Shown: positions 1 to 25,933 of the stretch, one piece after another
How positions within the stretch are numbered: position 1 is the stretch's first letter
Layout of the letters: the number at the start of each line of letters is the position of its first letter
Assembly: GCF_003665155.1 (NCBI RefSeq)
Contig: NZ_RCFQ01000030.1
Location: 1 to 35,924, forward strand
Length of the DNA stretch: 35,924 nucleotides
Direction: 5' to 3'
Source of the DNA: Mariprofundus sp. EBB-1
GTDB lineage: Bacteria > Pseudomonadota > Zetaproteobacteria > Mariprofundales > Mariprofundaceae
Program-made: the position numbers and the translations under genes
Notes under the pieces: model-generated
Database searches by the model: none
The model's input: only the letters and a program-made list of their open reading frames with translations
Told to the model about the DNA's origin: nothing

Positions 1-2826
1 AATCGCCGCAGTTGCCAGTGACGTCGTTGCAGTCATTGATGCACTATCGTTTGCTGATACCGTGAGACCAGCACCAGCACTAATGGCTCTAACTCCGAGA
101 TACCCTGCCCTGAAACCAATATACGCATCGGTCTGGCTACTCACCTTGTTCAGACTAACAATACCGCCTGAAGCAGAACCACTGGCTCCAAACAATTTAC
201 CGCGAGCTGACGAAACAATCGCATTACCTACCGCAGTATTGAGCTTTGCACTCGTACTTGCCAGGACAGATAGCGCGCCAGTGGTCAAAATTTCTGAATC
301 CATGATATAAGCACGAATATCAGCGCCACTATTCAGACCAAACGCGGCATCGCCACCAATCAGTGCATCGACATTATCCAATGCCGTAGGACTCCAGCCA
401 AGTGAATTCACTCCGATGACAACACCTGATGATGTCACTGCACCACTCGCAAGCCCACTTCCAGCACCCGCCTTTGCGCTACTCTCTGCAATAGCCTCCA
501 CCACGGAGGTATCATCTGCGAGAATCTGAAGCGTGCCTACCCCGGTCACAGATACAGAGCTACCATCAATATAAGCATTCACATCACCGCGAATGTCATT
601 CGATGAGTATGAACCGGAAAAACTAAGTGCTGATGTTGATAATACACTGGAGCTGAATGTAGATGCTCTGACAACTGAATTGACCGAAATTCTTTTCAAT
701 GCATCCAACGAGATTGCTCCACTTGCAGCTACCACGGAACTGAAAACATAAACTTCAGTATTTTTATCCAGTAGGTTTTTCGCTACAGCAGCTGAAAAAC
801 TATACGGTAGCGTCATGCCACCGATATCCGTGATTTTCAGCGGGGACTCGGCAAACAGTAACGAAGCATCACTAGCCATAATCGCGATACCACCGGCACC
901 CGCAGTTATCGTACTACCTGCAATATAAGCACTGGTAAGTCCCGAAATATTGTTGGAGGCAAATACTGACGTGGCAGTGTAATGTGTAGCGCTCAGAGCG
1001 CTCAATTGAAGCGTTCCTACATTGACATTACCACTATTCAAGATATGTGCCGACGCATCTTCACTAAACTGATTCGTCGCAGACACCCCCAGCAGGCCAG
1101 CCGCTGTAGCCGTCACATTACCCTGAGTTATAGCCGAAACAGATAAAATTCCGCTAGTCACCACATTGCCACTGATAGTGGCATTAGCGCTTGATGAAGA
1201 GACCAGTGATACAGGATTCACATCACTTATCGACACATTACGTAATACAGTCGATGTCAGGGTGACATTAGCGGTCGATGCCATGATATCGCCAAGCACC
1301 TGTATAGATGCATTTTTTGCGGTAAGCTGAGCGGCGGCAGTGACCTGTATTTCATCCTGAGCAAGCGCAGTCAGCGCCACATTTCCAGCTGTATTAATGA
1401 CAAAACCAGCGTTCAGAATAATTGATTCTGCATCAACACTGAAAGCACCAATCAGATTCAAGTTTTCACTGATGCTCACTGCATCAGTGCCAGAGCCACC
1501 TGAAACCACCATGGAAAAAGCATTAATATCCACCCCAGCGATGGCGGTATCCACAAAGGATAGTGAATCGTTCCCGCCCATCAGGTTAACATTGATATTA
1601 GCCGTAGTATCCAGTACAAATCCGGCCAACGCAGTAAATGTGGCTGCGCCATCCCATTTGTATTCAAGCACCCCCGGGGTGGTTACCTGCAGTTGCAACA
1701 CATCGGCAACAGCTGAACCGGTAAACGTTAAAGTTGTTCCGGCTATCACGGGAGTCGCCCCTGCAAGCACCCCCCGATATCCGGCGGAACCGGCAGCATT
1801 GAACATCTGCGCACTTTCAATCTGGCCGGTGTTGAATTCCAGGTTCCAGTCGCCACCAAGGGCGGCGGCACCGGTCAAATCGGTGGAGGCGGCCACATCG
1901 GCGCCGGTCAGCTGCGCCAGTGAATTAACAAACTGCATGCCGGTAGTGCCGGCTGCCACTTCGCAGCCGTAGAGCAGAATATCGCCATCGGATTTGAGCG
2001 ACTGCCCCCAGCCTTTGATCTGGGCGGCAAATTTCTCAAGTTTCTTGCTATCGAGCTGGCTGTTGCCAAGTCTTAACTGACCGCTGCTACCGTGTGAAAG
2101 AATATGCACGGCAGCCACGCCCTGATGCATGGCCAATATTTCAGTAATCTGGTCAATGCCGCTACGCGTGGAATCAAGAATAAACACTTCAACATCACGC
2201 GATGGCGCTGCATTTTTTATCGCTTCAAAAGCTGGCTGTTCAACCGTGGCGGCAGCCTGTGCTGTATCTGCTGTGGCAGATGTTGCAAATGCTGGTGTTG
2301 CCTGCTTATGCGCGGCACTGGCCGCATCGGTGCTAACGGCAGTATTGGCAGCACTGTGCTGCACTGCCTTGGGTAGATTCAACTGATCGAGCAGCGTCTG
2401 GTAATCGGTGACCTGCGCATCCACAAAAACAATTTCATGTGCCGTAGCAATCTGTGGTGGTGCAACCGATGCCATTAACAGTGCCGCATCGGCACCGGCA
2501 AAGAGGTAAGGATCTACTGCTGGTGTAGCGTCCGCTGTGGAAGCCGGCGCAGGATCAGCCGGCACCTGTTGCTGTGCTGCTCCGGTCAGTTGTTCAATCG
2601 TGGCCTGATCAAGCAGCAACTGCTCTGGCATCTGTAACAAAGCCGGATCAATCGTGCTCTGGCTTATCCCCGTTAAAGCAGGATCTGCCGCAAACAACAT
2701 GCGCGGTTCAAGTGCTTCGAAATCCAGTCGGGCATGGCGTTGTTTGAGCTTACCTTTGCGTGCAGGCGGTCTGGCATGATACACAATGGACTTGGCCATA
2801 CGGCTGAATACGGAAGCGTTAAACAT
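1..2826 (-). CDS. Giant LEPR-XLL/DUF4347 surface protein, N-terminal 942 residues (runs off window)
   Basis: I read an open minus-strand frame from ATG at 2826 to base 1 with no stop seen, so the gene continues beyond the left edge. Residues 1-38 are basic. An LEPR-XLL motif follows (LEPRMLFAADP, residues 39-49); this is a family marker at the N-terminus of very large exported proteins. After an Ala/Pro/Thr-rich linker, a DUF4347 domain spans about residues 195-310, with LSHGSSGQLRLG from residue 243 and GDILLYGCEVAAG near 280. The rest is long, Ala/Ser/Val/Thr/Asn-rich, glycine-punctuated sequence, probably beta-solenoid repeats. There is no classical signal peptide, as expected for type I secretion cargo. 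The start overlaps the stop of the upstream TolC-like gene (TGATG), implying coupled translation and joint export. The repeated composition makes exact function unknowable here; adhesion or biofilm is an inference. Confidence 0.85.
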   Translation of the reverse strand, partial: MFNASVFSRMAKSIVYHARPPARKGKLKQRHARLDFEALEPRMLFAADPALTGISQSTIDPALLQMPEQLLLDQATIEQLTGAAQQQVPADPAPASTADATPAVDPYLFAGADAALLMASVAPPQIATAHEIVFVDAQVTDYQTLLDQLNLPKAVQHSAANTAVSTDAASAAHKQATPAFATSATADTAQAAATVEQPAFEAIKNAAPSRDVEVFILDSTRSGIDQITEILAMHQGVAAVHILSHGSSGQLRLGNSQLDSKKLEKFAAQIKGWGQSLKSDGDILLYGCEVAAGTTGMQFVNSLAQLTGADVAASTDLTGAAALGGDWNLEFNTGQIESAQMFNAAGSAGYRGVLAGATPVIAGTTLTFTGSAVADVLQLQVTTPGVLEYKWDGAATFTALAGFVLDTTANINVNLMGGNDSLSFVDTAIAGVDINAFSMVVSGGSGTDAVSISENLNLIGAFSVDAESIILNAGFVINTAGNVALTALAQDEIQVTAAAQLTAKNASIQVLGDIMASTANVTLTSTVLRNVSISDVNPVSLVSSSSANATISGNVVTSGILSVSAITQGNVTATAAGLLGVSATNQFSEDASAHILNSGNVNVGTLQLSALSATHYTATSVFASNNISGLTSAYIAGSTITAGAGGIAIMASDASLLFAESPLKITDIGGMTLPYSFSAAVAKNLLDKNTEVYVFSSVVAASGAISLDALKRISVNSVVRASTFSSSVLSTSALSFSGSYSSNDIRGDVNAYIDGSSVSVTGVGTLQILADDTSVVEAIAESSAKAGAGSGLASGAVTSSGVVIGVNSLGWSPTALDNVDALIGGDAAFGLNSGADIRAYIMDSEILTTGALSVLASTSAKLNTAVGNAIVSSARGKLFGASGSASGGIVSLNKVSSQTDAYIGFRAGYLGVRAISAGAGLTVSANDSASMTATTSLATAAI

Positions 2827-4697
2827 CAGATATTAATCTCACGAACAATTAACCAGCGATTACCATGCAACTCAAAGGTAACCTGCTTCATGCTCTCGTC
2901 GGTATAGGTATCGGACAGATAATATTGACGAAAGATCACCTTGGCGGTTTTACCGGCCTCGATCGTTTCAAGCTTAACATCACCCAGATTCACCCTGATC
3001 ATATTTTTACCATCAATCTTGCGGCGTCTATCTGCTTTCCAGTCGGCAAGCGAACCGGCGTTCGGTTTGAAGTTCGGGGCATAACTATCAAAATAGTGCT
3101 GCAAATCCTGCTTGGACCACGCCTGACGCCATTGCTCAAGTGCTGCCAAAGCATCCTCACCGGTCAATGCTGGTTTATCGGCTGACGCAGGGGTTTCAAC
3201 GGCTACACCCTTTTCGTCCATCACTACAGGAGCGCTCGGCACTGTCGCAGTTGACGGAGTCTGAACTACCACCAGTTCGGCTGGTGCTTCTGCCGATGTA
3301 TTATTGGCCGCAACACGCAAGGGAGAAACAATAACAGCATCAGGCTTCTCATAGGTGCTCGCCGCCATGCTTTCTCCGGCAAGTAAGCTATTGATCTGTT
3401 TCAGATCTTGACCGTCAAGACTACCAGCAGCCTGACGGATCTTGACGTAATTCAGCAGGTGATCATAACGCGAGGCCACTAAATCTCGCTCGGCAATATA
3501 AAAGTCACGCTGCGCTTCCAGTTTCTCCAGCATCGAACTAACACCGGCGCGATGCCCTTCCCGCTTGAGTTCATACAGGCTGCGCTTGGCTTCCAGTGAT
3601 TTCCTCAACGCATCAATTTTCTCTGAGCTGCTTAGCAGTTGGATATAACCGGCACGAATATCCCGTTCCACGGAACGATGTGCCGCTTCAAGTTCTTGTC
3701 TGGCTTGTTCAACTCTGTACAGCGATTCTCGCGTCAAAGATGCGGTGCGACCGCCCTCATAAAGCGGCAGATCCACCTGCAACAACACTTCCGACGTATC
3801 CACCTTGCTACCGCCGCCAAACAGCGAGCCTTTGGTATCTTGGCGATTGTAGCGGGCAATCAGGTCTACGGTCGGATAGTGCTGCGCAAACTGCTTGTCC
3901 GATTCTTTCTCGGCAATCGTAACCGCCACCGCTTTGGACTGGACCGTATAGTTATTCTCAACAGCACTGCTCACCCGTTCATCCACTGACATCGGGGTAA
4001 GTGCCGGTAGCACTGCATCCTTACTCAATGGGTGCATCGACTTGATCGATATACCGACCATGCCCCTGAGCACTTCCAGTGCATCCTGCACTGCTGCCTG
4101 CGATGAAATCACCTGCGCGGTGACTTCTGCTGACCTGGCCTCCACATCGCGCAGATCCGATACCGATAACAGGCCACTGGCATATTTCACCGTGGCTATA
4201 TTCAGCTCCGATGCAAGCGTCGTGCGCTCGGCAACGGCAAGCGTATAATTCTCTTCCGATTCAAGTGCTACCAGATAGGCCTCAACCAGACGCACCATCA
4301 GATCCTGACGCGCAGCCGAGAGTTCAAGGCTTGAGCGTATCTCACCCAGTTCAGTTTTGCTGTAGGCATACCATGCATCCAGATGAAAAAGAGGCTGCGT
4401 CAACGAGGCTGTCCAGTTGGTGGTTGGGTATCGGGTCGAGCCCTGACCGAACACGGCATTATCTGAACGCAATATTTTCTGTTTGGTGGTCTGGGTCTGG
4501 AATTGAGCGGAAGCATTGGGAAGAAAGTTAGCCAGCGATTGCCTGTGCAGTTCCTCGCTTACCTTGCCTTCATACTCGGCAGAGCGCAGTGCAGGATCAG
4601 CATCCAGCGCTGCCTTGTAGAGCCCCATCAGATCCTCAGCATGCGCACTCAAGGGAAGCACCATAAAACAGCATAAACCAACAATGTACTTCAGCAT
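2826..4697 (-). CDS. TolC-family outer-membrane efflux/secretion channel with C-terminal NTF2-like domain
   Basis: The product is 623 aa. I chose ATG 4697 over the upstream ATG at 4733 because GGGAG lies just upstream and a clean signal peptide follows (MLKYIVGLCCFMVLPLSAHA, then EDLM). Residues about 21-440 are a TolC/OEP fold: two repeats of long helices and beta segments, with the typical opening 'DLMGLYKAALDADPALRSA' and 'PLYEGGR' in the second half. A Pro/Ala/Val-rich linker (about 441-512) leads to a C-terminal domain (about 515-623; starts ALEQWRQAWSKQDLQHYFDSY, ends NRWLIVREINI) that resembles the NTF2-like domain found at the end of Cds6-type L,D-transpeptidase proteins. Ordinary TolC proteins are about 420-500 aa and lack it. 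The stop overlaps the start of the giant LEPR protein, so this is likely the outer-membrane part of its type I exporter. The inner-membrane ABC and adaptor genes are not in the window. Confidence 0.9.
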   Translation of the reverse strand: MLKYIVGLCCFMVLPLSAHAEDLMGLYKAALDADPALRSAEYEGKVSEELHRQSLANFLPNASAQFQTQTTKQKILRSDNAVFGQGSTRYPTTNWTASLTQPLFHLDAWYAYSKTELGEIRSSLELSAARQDLMVRLVEAYLVALESEENYTLAVAERTTLASELNIATVKYASGLLSVSDLRDVEARSAEVTAQVISSQAAVQDALEVLRGMVGISIKSMHPLSKDAVLPALTPMSVDERVSSAVENNYTVQSKAVAVTIAEKESDKQFAQHYPTVDLIARYNRQDTKGSLFGGGSKVDTSEVLLQVDLPLYEGGRTASLTRESLYRVEQARQELEAAHRSVERDIRAGYIQLLSSSEKIDALRKSLEAKRSLYELKREGHRAGVSSMLEKLEAQRDFYIAERDLVASRYDHLLNYVKIRQAAGSLDGQDLKQINSLLAGESMAASTYEKPDAVIVSPLRVAANNTSAEAPAELVVVQTPSTATVPSAPVVMDEKGVAVETPASADKPALTGEDALAALEQWRQAWSKQDLQHYFDSYAPNFKPNAGSLADWKADRRRKIDGKNMIRVNLGDVKLETIEAGKTAKVIFRQYYLSDTYTDESMKQVTFELHGNRWLIVREINI

Positions 4698-4733
4698 CAA
4701 ATCTCCCGTCTTTCTAGCGTGGATAAAAGTCAT

Positions 4734-22865: not shown

Positions 22866-24272
22866 ATGAATAAAACACTACATAAGCAGTATGCAGCTGA
22901 CCCTTGTGCGATCGAAATCCCTTCTCCGTGGTCAATGGACCACTATATCTGGCGAGTCTGGACAACACTGCACTTTCTACCCTTAAGTCTGATGCAATCG
23001 GGTAAACCACGTAAAAAAGAGCTGAACAGAATCGCAACACTGCTGCATGAGAATAATCCCGATCATCTTGAGTCATGCATATCGCTGATGTTAAAAACCG
23101 ATCTTCTGAAGCAACGATCCGGCTCTATCGTACCGCAACATATCCATTGGCCGAACTGGCAGAAACTGGTACGTACCGGGCTATTCAAAATAATCCGTGG
23201 CTGGAATCGTTGGTCTGAAGCTGATGAAATACAAGCCCTGCAGCTGCTCAATGCATTACCGATCAATACATGGTTGAAACTGGATGAGCTTATCGAATCT
23301 CTTCAGGAGCAAGCCAGCGGAGCCGTCATTGCGGCTGACTGGCTGGCACTGTTCACCCAGCAACATGGTCTAGCCCTACATCATCTAAATTTGAGCCGCC
23401 GTAGCATCTTTTTTCTACCTGAATTTCAAGCCGTGTTAAATGAAAAAACCATCTCTTTTCCTGCCCCCGGTTGGCATGGAGCCGATGAAAATGCACGAAT
23501 AAGCGGTTTTATTTCAAATGCCGGTGAAATTCAACTCACTCCAGATTGTGCGCATCACCTGTTACCAGAACTGAGTTCTTTTTGTAACATCACCCACATT
23601 GAGCAGATGATTACCCTGCAACTGGATAAGCTTGCCATAGAGCGCATGGCTACCGACAAAAAAGCTCTTCTTGATGCCCGTACCACTCTGGAATCCATCC
23701 AATCGCCCCTTCCCCAATCTATCATCTATATTTTTGATAAAACAAACCAACAGCAAGCGATCGCATCGGCTGCATCCACATCCATGGTGATGATCTTAAA
23801 AGATGTCGCTGCCATTCACAGGCTACAGACACTGGATTTTGAATACTTCCAACCGTTTGATGATAAGCCCGAAATTGTACTGCTTAATGCATCGGCTGAT
23901 GCACATGCTTTTGTCAGAGCATGTCATCTGGCAGGTATTCAGCTGGATACGTTGATTCCCCCACTGCAGTGGACCATAGGCACCCCATCACTGAACGCCT
24001 GGATGCAGGTGAATGTAGATCGGGAAGGTCAATGGCTGGAGATCGTCTATCAAAAAACATTGGGCAGTGCTCCCAAGCAGGTTTTTGCTCGCATTGATGC
24101 CGATTTTTATGGTGCAGTGCGTATTCAACCGACACGAAAAACTAAACAGCGATATCAACTCCAGAAAACGACAGTCGAACTACAACCCAAACATATCTTG
24201 CGCCTACGCGAACTTGAAGATGATGAGATCAGTCAGCTAAGGCTGGATAGGTTAGGATCAATTCAAGCATGA
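22866..24272 (+). CDS. Helicase-associated protein of unknown function, partner of the XPB helicase
   Basis: A 468-aa protein whose end overlaps the XPB gene by four bases (ATGA). It has no ATPase motifs. The N-terminal half is helical (WSMDHYIWRVWTTLHFLPLS; repeats of Trp and Leu), and residues about 280-340 contain IIYIFDKTNQQQAI and MVMILKDVAAIHRLQTL, followed by HAFVRACHLAGIQLDTL. From memory, actinobacterial XPB genes also sit beside a helicase-associated gene (Rv0862c next to Rv0861c); similarity of this protein to that family is plausible but not provable here. A role in loading or regulating the helicase is inference. Confidence 0.8.
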   Translation: MNKTLHKQYAADPCAIEIPSPWSMDHYIWRVWTTLHFLPLSLMQSGKPRKKELNRIATLLHENNPDHLESCISLMLKTDLLKQRSGSIVPQHIHWPNWQKLVRTGLFKIIRGWNRWSEADEIQALQLLNALPINTWLKLDELIESLQEQASGAVIAADWLALFTQQHGLALHHLNLSRRSIFFLPEFQAVLNEKTISFPAPGWHGADENARISGFISNAGEIQLTPDCAHHLLPELSSFCNITHIEQMITLQLDKLAIERMATDKKALLDARTTLESIQSPLPQSIIYIFDKTNQQQAIASAASTSMVMILKDVAAIHRLQTLDFEYFQPFDDKPEIVLLNASADAHAFVRACHLAGIQLDTLIPPLQWTIGTPSLNAWMQVNVDREGQWLEIVYQKTLGSAPKQVFARIDADFYGAVRIQPTRKTKQRYQLQKTTVELQPKHILRLRELEDDEISQLRLDRLGSIQA

Positions 24273-25933
24273 GCTATAACCCCGAACGCCCCATGATTGT
24301 GCAGGGTGATCACTCGCTGCTATTGGAAACCCATAACACCCGTTTTCATGCGGCACGTGATGCCATCTCCCCCTTTGCTGAATTGGAAAAATCTCAGGAA
24401 CATATTCATAGCTATCGCCTGAACCCCTTAAGCCTGTGGAATGCAGCTGCTGCCGGCCATACGTTAGAAGAAGCGGAAGCAGCCCTGCTTCATTATAGTA
24501 AATACACCGTCCCCCCCAATGTACTCGAAGAGATGCGCCACACTTTTAACCGATATGGTCAGCTCATACTCACCAAAGACGATGAAGCCACGTTGCGTTT
24601 GAGCATCGTAGATCCCTTCATTGCGGCACAGGTAAGCCGGGATGAAAAACTGGCGGTTATGATACGAGAACAGATTGATGAAGACCTGTTTCTCATCGAC
24701 ACAGCGCAACGAGGCCCACTCAAACACGCACTGATCAAACTGGGTTTTCCGGTTGATGATCAGGCAGGCTTTAATGATGGAGCCCAGTTCAATTTTAATC
24801 TGCGCAGCCATACCCTCTCCGAAGATCACGCTTTTGAACTGCGTAGCTATCAGCAGGAGGCCGTGGATTCCTTTGTAGCCTCCGGCAGCCATGGAGTGAT
24901 CGTACTGGCTTGCGGAGCAGGTAAAACGCTCGTAGGCATGGCTGCCATGGCGCGCATAGGCATGAACACGCTGATCATCACGCCCAATACCGCCGCAGCC
25001 CATCAATGGCATGCAGAACTGTGCGACAAAACCGATATGGATGCGACACAGATTGGCGAATACACCGGCGCGCGAAAAGATATTCAACCGATCACCATCG
25101 CCACCTATCAAATGCTCACCTACCGCGACCAACAGAATGATGAGATGCCGCATATGGCACTGATCACCAAACACGAATGGGGACTGATTATTTTTGATGA
25201 GGTGCATGTCCTACCTGCTCCGGTGTTCAGGGCGGTATCTGAGATTCAAGCCCGGCGCAGACTGGGGTTAACGGCCACCCTGATTCGTGAAGATGGCCTA
25301 GAGCGAGATGTGTTTTCACTCATCGGCCCCAAACGCTACGATCTACCCTGGCGTGAACTGGAACAATCAGGACACATTGCCAAAGCCCATTGCATAGAGA
25401 TTCGTGTGCCGATGGCCAAAGATGATCATTTTGCCCATGCCACGGCTGAAGACAGGCATAAAGCCTATCGCATTGCAGCTGAGAACAGGGTCAAAGATCA
25501 CGTCGCCGAGGCACTCATCGAAAAGCATAATGGTGAAGGTATTCTGGTGATCGGCCAGTATATCAAACAGCTCACCCGTATCGCCGAGCATCTCGGTGCG
25601 CCGGTCATTACCGGCCGCATGAGCAGTAAAGAGCGTGAACGCCTGTACGCCGCCTTCAGAGCGGGAGATTTAAGACTACTGGTGGTCTCCAAAGTAGCCA
25701 ATTACGCCATTGATCTACCCGATGCCTCCGTTGCCATCCAAATCTCAGGTGCCTTCGGTTCCAGACAGGAAGAGGCGCAACGACTCGGTCGCATCCTTCG
25801 TCCAAAAGGAGGGCCAGCTTATTTTTACACGCTGGTTTCCGATCACAGCGACGAACTAAAATTCGCCAGTAACCGCCAGCGCTTTCTGGCCGAACAGGGT
25901 TATGACTACATGATTGAAGATTGGGGTGATTAA
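24269..25933 (+). CDS. XPB (ERCC3/Ssl2)-type DNA repair helicase
   Basis: A 554-aa SF2 helicase. N-terminal damage-recognition-like region (PMIVQGDHSLLLE ... PLSLWNAAAAGH, up to about 100). Core motifs: ACGAGKT (214-220, Walker A), DEVH (310-313), GLTATLIREDG with the XPB RED motif (340-342), and a C-terminal RecA domain with GSRQEEAQRLGRILRP (497-512). It resembles the mycobacterial XPB over its full length, including LPAPVFR and RFLAEQGY near the end. Such helicases unwind 3'-5' and are linked to excision repair; they are common in Actinobacteria and archaea but scarce in proteobacteria. Start codon overlaps the upstream partner. Confidence 0.95.
   Translation: MSYNPERPMIVQGDHSLLLETHNTRFHAARDAISPFAELEKSQEHIHSYRLNPLSLWNAAAAGHTLEEAEAALLHYSKYTVPPNVLEEMRHTFNRYGQLILTKDDEATLRLSIVDPFIAAQVSRDEKLAVMIREQIDEDLFLIDTAQRGPLKHALIKLGFPVDDQAGFNDGAQFNFNLRSHTLSEDHAFELRSYQQEAVDSFVASGSHGVIVLACGAGKTLVGMAAMARIGMNTLIITPNTAAAHQWHAELCDKTDMDATQIGEYTGARKDIQPITIATYQMLTYRDQQNDEMPHMALITKHEWGLIIFDEVHVLPAPVFRAVSEIQARRRLGLTATLIREDGLERDVFSLIGPKRYDLPWRELEQSGHIAKAHCIEIRVPMAKDDHFAHATAEDRHKAYRIAAENRVKDHVAEALIEKHNGEGILVIGQYIKQLTRIAEHLGAPVITGRMSSKERERLYAAFRAGDLRLLVVSKVANYAIDLPDASVAIQISGAFGSRQEEAQRLGRILRPKGGPAYFYTLVSDHSDELKFASNRQRFLAEQGYDYMIEDWGD

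Follow-up and report, generated by a model that had tools for sequence, protein, structure and literature searches.

The window analysed here, a stretch of 35,924 nucleotides that makes up the entire contig C24 of the Mariprofundus sp. EBB-1 assembly (63 contigs, 2.88 Mb, 99.5% complete), encodes a TolC-family outer-membrane channel and the beginning of a giant LEPR-XLL/DUF4347 protein. We propose with reasonable confidence that this channel is the dedicated exit duct of a type-I-like secretion system that works without an ABC exporter and serves the RTX-containing giant, and that the channel is docked in the cell wall by an NTF2-like domain. At the level of sequence, the proposal draws on gene identities, gene order and conservation, on the predicted fold and the pocket residues, and on the finding that no ABC exporter of a type I secretion system (T1SS) scores above cut-off.

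A TolC-family channel with a C-terminal NTF2-like domain

The open reading frame of the channel spans 2826-4733 on the minus strand. Because the signal peptide begins at Met13 (base 4697), this codon is the likelier start, and the gene for a TolC-family channel with a C-terminal NTF2-like domain is placed at 2826-4697 (-) from profiles, AlphaFold2 (AF2) models and the signal peptide. The TolC core (residues 31-450; 3384-4643 (-)) contains two OEP repeats (PF02321, 138.5 bits), and with 240.2 bits against TIGR01844, whose cut-off is 225.15, the protein belongs to the TolC family. For the core, AF2 predicts the layout of TolC, with two times two strands and four long helices. These strands and helices are also present in the full-length model (mean pLDDT 73.7), in which disorder begins at about residue 457 and is followed by a separate C-terminal domain, modelled at low confidence. 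An Ala/Pro/Val-rich linker, recognised by composition and predicted to be disordered by AF2, occupies residues 456-528 (3150-3368 (-); Ala 21%, Pro 11%) and leads to the extra domain at residues 529-632. TolC topology places the C-terminus in the periplasm. Downstream, the stop codon of tolC and the start codon of the giant gene overlap by one base in the sequence TGATG (2824-2828 (-)). The first-pass annotation had described a TolC channel fused to an NTF2-like domain behind a Pro/Ala linker, with a one-base overlap between channel and cargo genes, and all of these points held.

The first-pass annotation had staked its reading on the extension matching an NTF2-like profile. Indeed, Pfam Cds6_C (PF24125) matches the domain (2838-3149 (-)) with 60.8 bits over a cut-off of 27, and AF2, Foldseek and the pocket residues likewise place it in the Csd6/Pgp2/Bd1075 type. 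From the window domain, four further Cds6_C domains of EBB-1 and five borne by channels, we built a profile and searched the PDB with it. Only structures of Bd1075 (7o21, 1.4e-16), Csd6 (4xzz, 4.5e-11) and Pgp2 (6xj6, 1.2e-10; 6xj7, 2.1e-9) were matched at E up to 0.001. The AF2 model of the isolated domain reached a pLDDT of 89.5, and Foldseek returned Bd1075 and Csd6 on top, with Pgp2 among the next matches. When the pocket of Pgp2 (Y233/F242/K257/K307/E324) was aligned with the window domain (Y547/F555/R569/K616/E632), four of the five tested residues were identical, the exception being K257, which is replaced by R.

For Pgp2, NMR shows peptidoglycan fragments bound in the NTF2 pocket; the protein is pulled down by sacculi, with which a K307A variant associates only weakly (PMC8038945). 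In Bd1075, the NTF2-like domain positions the enzyme on one cell face (PMC8938487). The window channel thus has the NTF2-like domain and its peptidoglycan pocket in common with the LD-carboxypeptidases Csd6, Pgp2 and Bd1075; however, in these proteins the domain guides a wall-trimming enzyme, whereas here the same domain type is carried by an export channel. By analogy, the window domain is predicted from its sequence to bind peptidoglycan, which would dock the channel in the wall.

A search for the TolC-NTF2 architecture, which had been suggested, was answered in part. No TolC match in the genus, family, order, class, phylum sample or 44 named genomes covers the NTF2 part, a plasmid collection yielded just generic TolCs, and the exact fusion is known from one of the genomes searched. 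Looking next to DUF4347 genes, however, revealed similar channel-NTF2 fusions beside LEPR/DUF4347 giants in five other genomes. The genome of EBB-1 itself encodes four further Cds6_C proteins (C2:58226, C23:133270, C23:149961 and C23:151210; L001, L005, L003 and L002, respectively). Judged by eye, one of these further proteins appears to join a SurA/parvulin-like PPIase to the domain, and others look like a TPR protein and an LD-transpeptidase. Elsewhere in the window, an XPB/ERCC3-type helicase gene (24269-25933 (+)) lies immediately 3' of a 468-aa open reading frame (span of both 22866-25933 (+)) for which a Pfam scan gave zero matches.

The giant protein probably continues on a second contig

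The neighbour of the channel had been called a giant LEPR-XLL/DUF4347 protein. Both features were found by profile, but only the first 942 residues of the open frame (1-2826 (-)) lie in the window, because the gene runs off the end of contig C24. The LEPR-XLL motif (FEALEPRMLFAADP; 2674-2721 (-)) stands behind a basic N-terminus and scores 20.5 bits against NF012209 (cut-off 17). The DUF4347 domain (PF14252; 1765-2202 (-)) scores 189.8 bits over a cut-off of 24.6 and is the only one found in the genome. A repeat of the NF012206 (LktA_tand_53) type at 487-630 (-) remains, with 42.7 bits, below the cut-off of 50.

At the end of contig C16, an open frame of at least 4,345 aa (C16:34730-47764 (-)) carries RTX repeats (79.8 bits) and 15 stretches of the LktA_tand_53 type, of which the window part has one weaker example. 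This frame is probably the rest of the window giant, to which it would add at least 4,345 residues, and C24 would accordingly join C16, although no shared sequence of 10-399 bases was found between the two contig ends. In this arrangement, tolC and the giant gene probably once stood in one operon with genes for GAF-HlyD, M50-HlyD, a SecA-like ATPase and HlyD, an operon now split between the two contigs.

Among DUF4347 giants in general, two styles of leader are apparent: giants next to lipoprotein-type channels have (L)ALEPRxLFDGA, and those next to TolC/SecA-type channels have basic stretches that contain LExRxLLSAD or a similar sequence. One contig (G067:C10, L056-L058) encodes two DUF4347 giants about 20 kb apart; the second has an OEP-OmpA channel close by, and M50-HlyD is encoded at 96.8 kb of this contig. 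Literature searches by the names DUF4347, LEPR-XLL and combinations of HlyD, M50 and GAF yielded no function.

A SecA/M50/HlyD module follows the probable continuation of the giant

Adjacent genes behind the giant on C16 encode GAF-HlyD, M50-HlyD, a SecA-like ATPase and HlyD. Three of these proteins have HlyD domains, which identifies them as HlyD-type adaptors. The SecA-like ATPase matches PF07517 with 335 bits and has P-loop and preprotein-binding domains with the Walker A sequence TGEGKT; the domain scan gave no wing-scaffold match. In an alignment of the M50 proteins of such modules, HExxH is invariant. A PqqD-like match was obtained at the N-terminus of M50-HlyD in 10/14 proteins at a permissive E of up to 0.1, the protein of EBB-1 falling just below the cut-off. 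Against the model of a daptide leader metalloprotease, the M50 part of the EBB-1 protein scored 159.8 bits and is thus below the cut-off of 300.

Adaptor and ABC genes had been expected beyond the window; the adaptors are on C16, and a T1SS-type ABC exporter was not found in the genome. In a genome-wide search with TIGR03375 (LssB), the best match reached 285 of 693 bits. This protein is an MsbA equivalog (614 bits over 602), and the next matches listed are ATPase-only. Since no T1SS ABC exporter was found and the partners are GAF-HlyD, M50-HlyD, SecA-like ATPase and HlyD genes, the locus is probably not one of classic type I secretion, and the wording of the first-pass annotation is not supported in this respect.

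A locus of short SecA_DEAD, HlyD, Peptidase_M50 and GAF genes was described by Kamneva, Poudel and Ward in 2015. These authors proposed that SecA is the ATPase and that the M50 proteins may form the pore, saw OEP proteins in some loci and called the biological role completely unknown (PMC4452313). A term search of that text for cargo, adhesin, calcium-binding or DUF4347 gave no match. C16 has the same set of four machine genes (M50-HlyD, GAF-HlyD, HlyD and a short SecA that lacks the wing-scaffold domain), in both cases without an ABC transporter. The locus of EBB-1 is therefore probably of this ABC-less SecA/M50/HlyD type, with the giant as its likely cargo. What goes beyond the 2015 description is the LEPR/DUF4347 giant as candidate cargo and a dedicated TolC clade as channel, some members of which carry peptidoglycan-associated domains.

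In EBB-1 the module and the tolC/giant pair are on different contigs, but they share one contig in relatives. In G040, a genome of the same family, a single contig holds, in order, TolC, a 4,161-aa DUF4347 giant, GAF-HlyD, M50-HlyD, SecA and HlyD; there, too, tolC overlaps the giant gene, the TolC being without an extra domain. In G082, G088, G123, G126, G156 and G285, an AMIN-TolC and the N-terminus of a giant, and likewise the C-terminus of a giant and the module, share a contig and keep this order. A tolC gene that immediately precedes the gene of a DUF4347 giant also occurs in the named genomes of Sulfuritalea, a Burkholderiales MAG, Zoogloea ramigera, a Deltaproteobacteria MAG, Pseudomaricurvus and Achromobacter piechaudii.

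An M50-HlyD profile led us to 80 named loci, of which 78 contain GAF-HlyD, 72 SecA and 63 HlyD. A giant low-complexity open reading frame stands beside the module in 52 of them, 7 are cut off and 21 have none by the criteria used. A motif search for an ABC exporter gave 0 in the 80. At one locus (L182:15478-17556), a ShlB/POTRA_2 two-partner secretion gene lies right behind the HlyD gene of the SecA module, and similar-looking open reading frames follow the module in L179, L181, L183, L193 and L194. At L189:13856-15848, the SecA-like gene appears in two frames flanking a masked (N) stretch.

Channels beside DUF4347 giants have repeatedly gained peptidoglycan-associated domains

In a tree of OEP domains, 14 giant-linked TolCs and one module-linked TolC form a single clade (SH-aLRT 99). 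The 18 unlinked TolCs, which include others from the same named genomes, stand outside it, and none of 500 shuffles was as clustered. The pairing of cargo and channel is well supported. The earlier suggestion of a channel that is specific to its cargo and has an accessory domain built in finds support both in this clade and in the channel-NTF2 fusions beside giants in five other genomes.

Seven of the 14 giant-linked TolCs bear an extra domain (six AMIN, one Cds6_C), and the other seven have no recognised one. A second, lipoprotein-type family of channels adjoins other DUF4347 giants. Most of these loci also have HlyD, GAF-HlyD and M50-HlyD genes, and no SecA was seen there. Extra domains are present in 8/30 of the lipoprotein-type channels: Cds6_C in five (two of them also with SPOR), SPOR alone in one, OmpA in one and AMIN in one. 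A common property of AMIN, SPOR and OmpA domains is their association with peptidoglycan. Channels beside LEPR/DUF4347 giants have repeatedly gained peptidoglycan-associated domains (AMIN, Cds6_C, SPOR, OmpA). The AMIN-TolCs form one clade and the tree of the lipoprotein-type channels needs four label changes, which puts the number of separate domain gains at several, roughly six.

None of 20 TolCs that are not directly beside a DUF4347 giant has an AMIN, Cds6_C, SPOR or OmpA domain. The corresponding Fisher p of 6e-4 (7/14 versus 0/20) is not proof, as the channels were chosen by cargo linkage and the samples are not independent. We do not lean on this value, because the AMIN-TolCs are one clade and the controls include two TolCs (L276 and L289) that adjoin the module itself. 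Wall docking is not required by the system, since the TolC of G040 and half of the linked TolCs lack an extra domain.

Alternative explanations

A giant with RTX repeats in its C-terminal part, a TolC and HlyD-type proteins are also what a classic T1SS would consist of, with an ABC exporter and HlyD encoded elsewhere in a genome of 63 contigs and with the SecA/M50/HlyD cluster unrelated. We rejected this as the leading reading and judge it improbable, as neither the genome nor the 80 module loci yielded a T1SS ABC exporter, every ABC protein of a genome that is 99.5% complete stays below the LssB cut-off, and relatives have the module behind the giant on one contig. The fragmented assembly and the contig ends without sequence overlap could equally mean that C16 and C24 are not adjacent, C16 encoding a second giant and the window giant ending elsewhere. 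This is very improbable in our view: just one DUF4347 occurs in the genome, the C16 giant is without an N-terminus and the C24 giant without a C-terminus, both parts have LktA_tand_53-type repeats, and the complete locus of G040 shows the gene order expected from the join. Finally, searches of other genomes of the genus or family did not turn up this TolC again, which would suit a housekeeping TolC that stands by chance beside a functionally unrelated giant gene. Such an accident is hardly credible given the one-base overlap in the window, the TolC that abuts the giant in G040 as well, and the single clade that linked TolCs form across several families.

A different question is what the NTF2-like domain does on this channel. 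In E. coli, the lipoprotein YbjP binds the equatorial domain of TolC and there links the protomers to one another (PMC13082787, PMC13095208), a small extra domain acting on the periplasmic side of TolC as we propose for the window channel. By analogy, the NTF2-like domain could be a clamp or oligomerisation unit of TolC instead of a wall anchor: the C-terminus of the channel exits TolC close to the equatorial region in the AF2 model, and the structural matches listed by Foldseek include NTF2 folds of CaMKII hubs. Nevertheless, we consider this unlikely, since the sequence matches and the best structural matches are to NTF2 domains of peptidoglycan enzymes with a conserved binding pocket, other linked channels bear AMIN, SPOR or OmpA domains instead, and a linker with some 70 disordered residues hardly points to a rigid clamp. 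YbjP itself is a stand-alone lipoprotein of the DUF3828 type, whose binding to peptidoglycan may not be avid, whereas the window domain is fused to its channel, and YbjP is absent from the 50 structural matches listed for the domain.

Discussion

In the mechanism that we favour, the short SecA-like ATPase would drive the giant across the inner membrane. Such an ATPase does not form a pore of its own; the route may lead via SecYEG or through the polytopic M50-HlyD protein. PqqD-like domains bind peptide leaders, and we therefore take the basic LEPR-XLL N-terminus as a putative leader, which the PqqD-like N-terminus of M50-HlyD would recognise and its HExxH site would trim. The three HlyD-type adaptors would then bridge to TolC. 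Hanging on its flexible linker from the equatorial region of TolC, the NTF2-like domain would bind peptidoglycan and dock the channel, and the wall-docked TolC would release, perhaps retain, the giant. The energy source, the cleavage of the leader, the binding of peptidoglycan by the window protein and the fate of the giant at the surface are what we infer from the genes and domains described above.

Such a system would resemble a T1SS in its TolC channel, its HlyD-type adaptors and its giant RTX cargo, but differ from it by the SecA-like ATPase and M50-HlyD, by an ABC exporter that was not found, and by an N-terminal LEPR-XLL leader. In a more general form, whose chances we see as evenly balanced, this would be a SecA-powered, ABC-independent tripartite system in which a PqqD-like/M50 intramembrane protease-HlyD fusion both recognises and trims the LEPR-XLL leaders of giant surface proteins, and the dedicated channels are repeatedly tied to the wall by fusion to a peptidoglycan-binding domain.

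The SecA_DEAD/HlyD/M50 locus, whose role was unknown when described in 2015, now has a candidate cargo, the LEPR-XLL/DUF4347 giants, and a dedicated TolC clade, and the hypothesis of a LEPR-XLL leader can be tested. The gain of AMIN, SPOR, OmpA or Csd6-type NTF2 domains by two types of channel suggests that channels for giant proteins are docked in the wall, and opens the Csd6-type NTF2 domain to tests as an anchor to peptidoglycan in general, beyond the enzymes of the wall.
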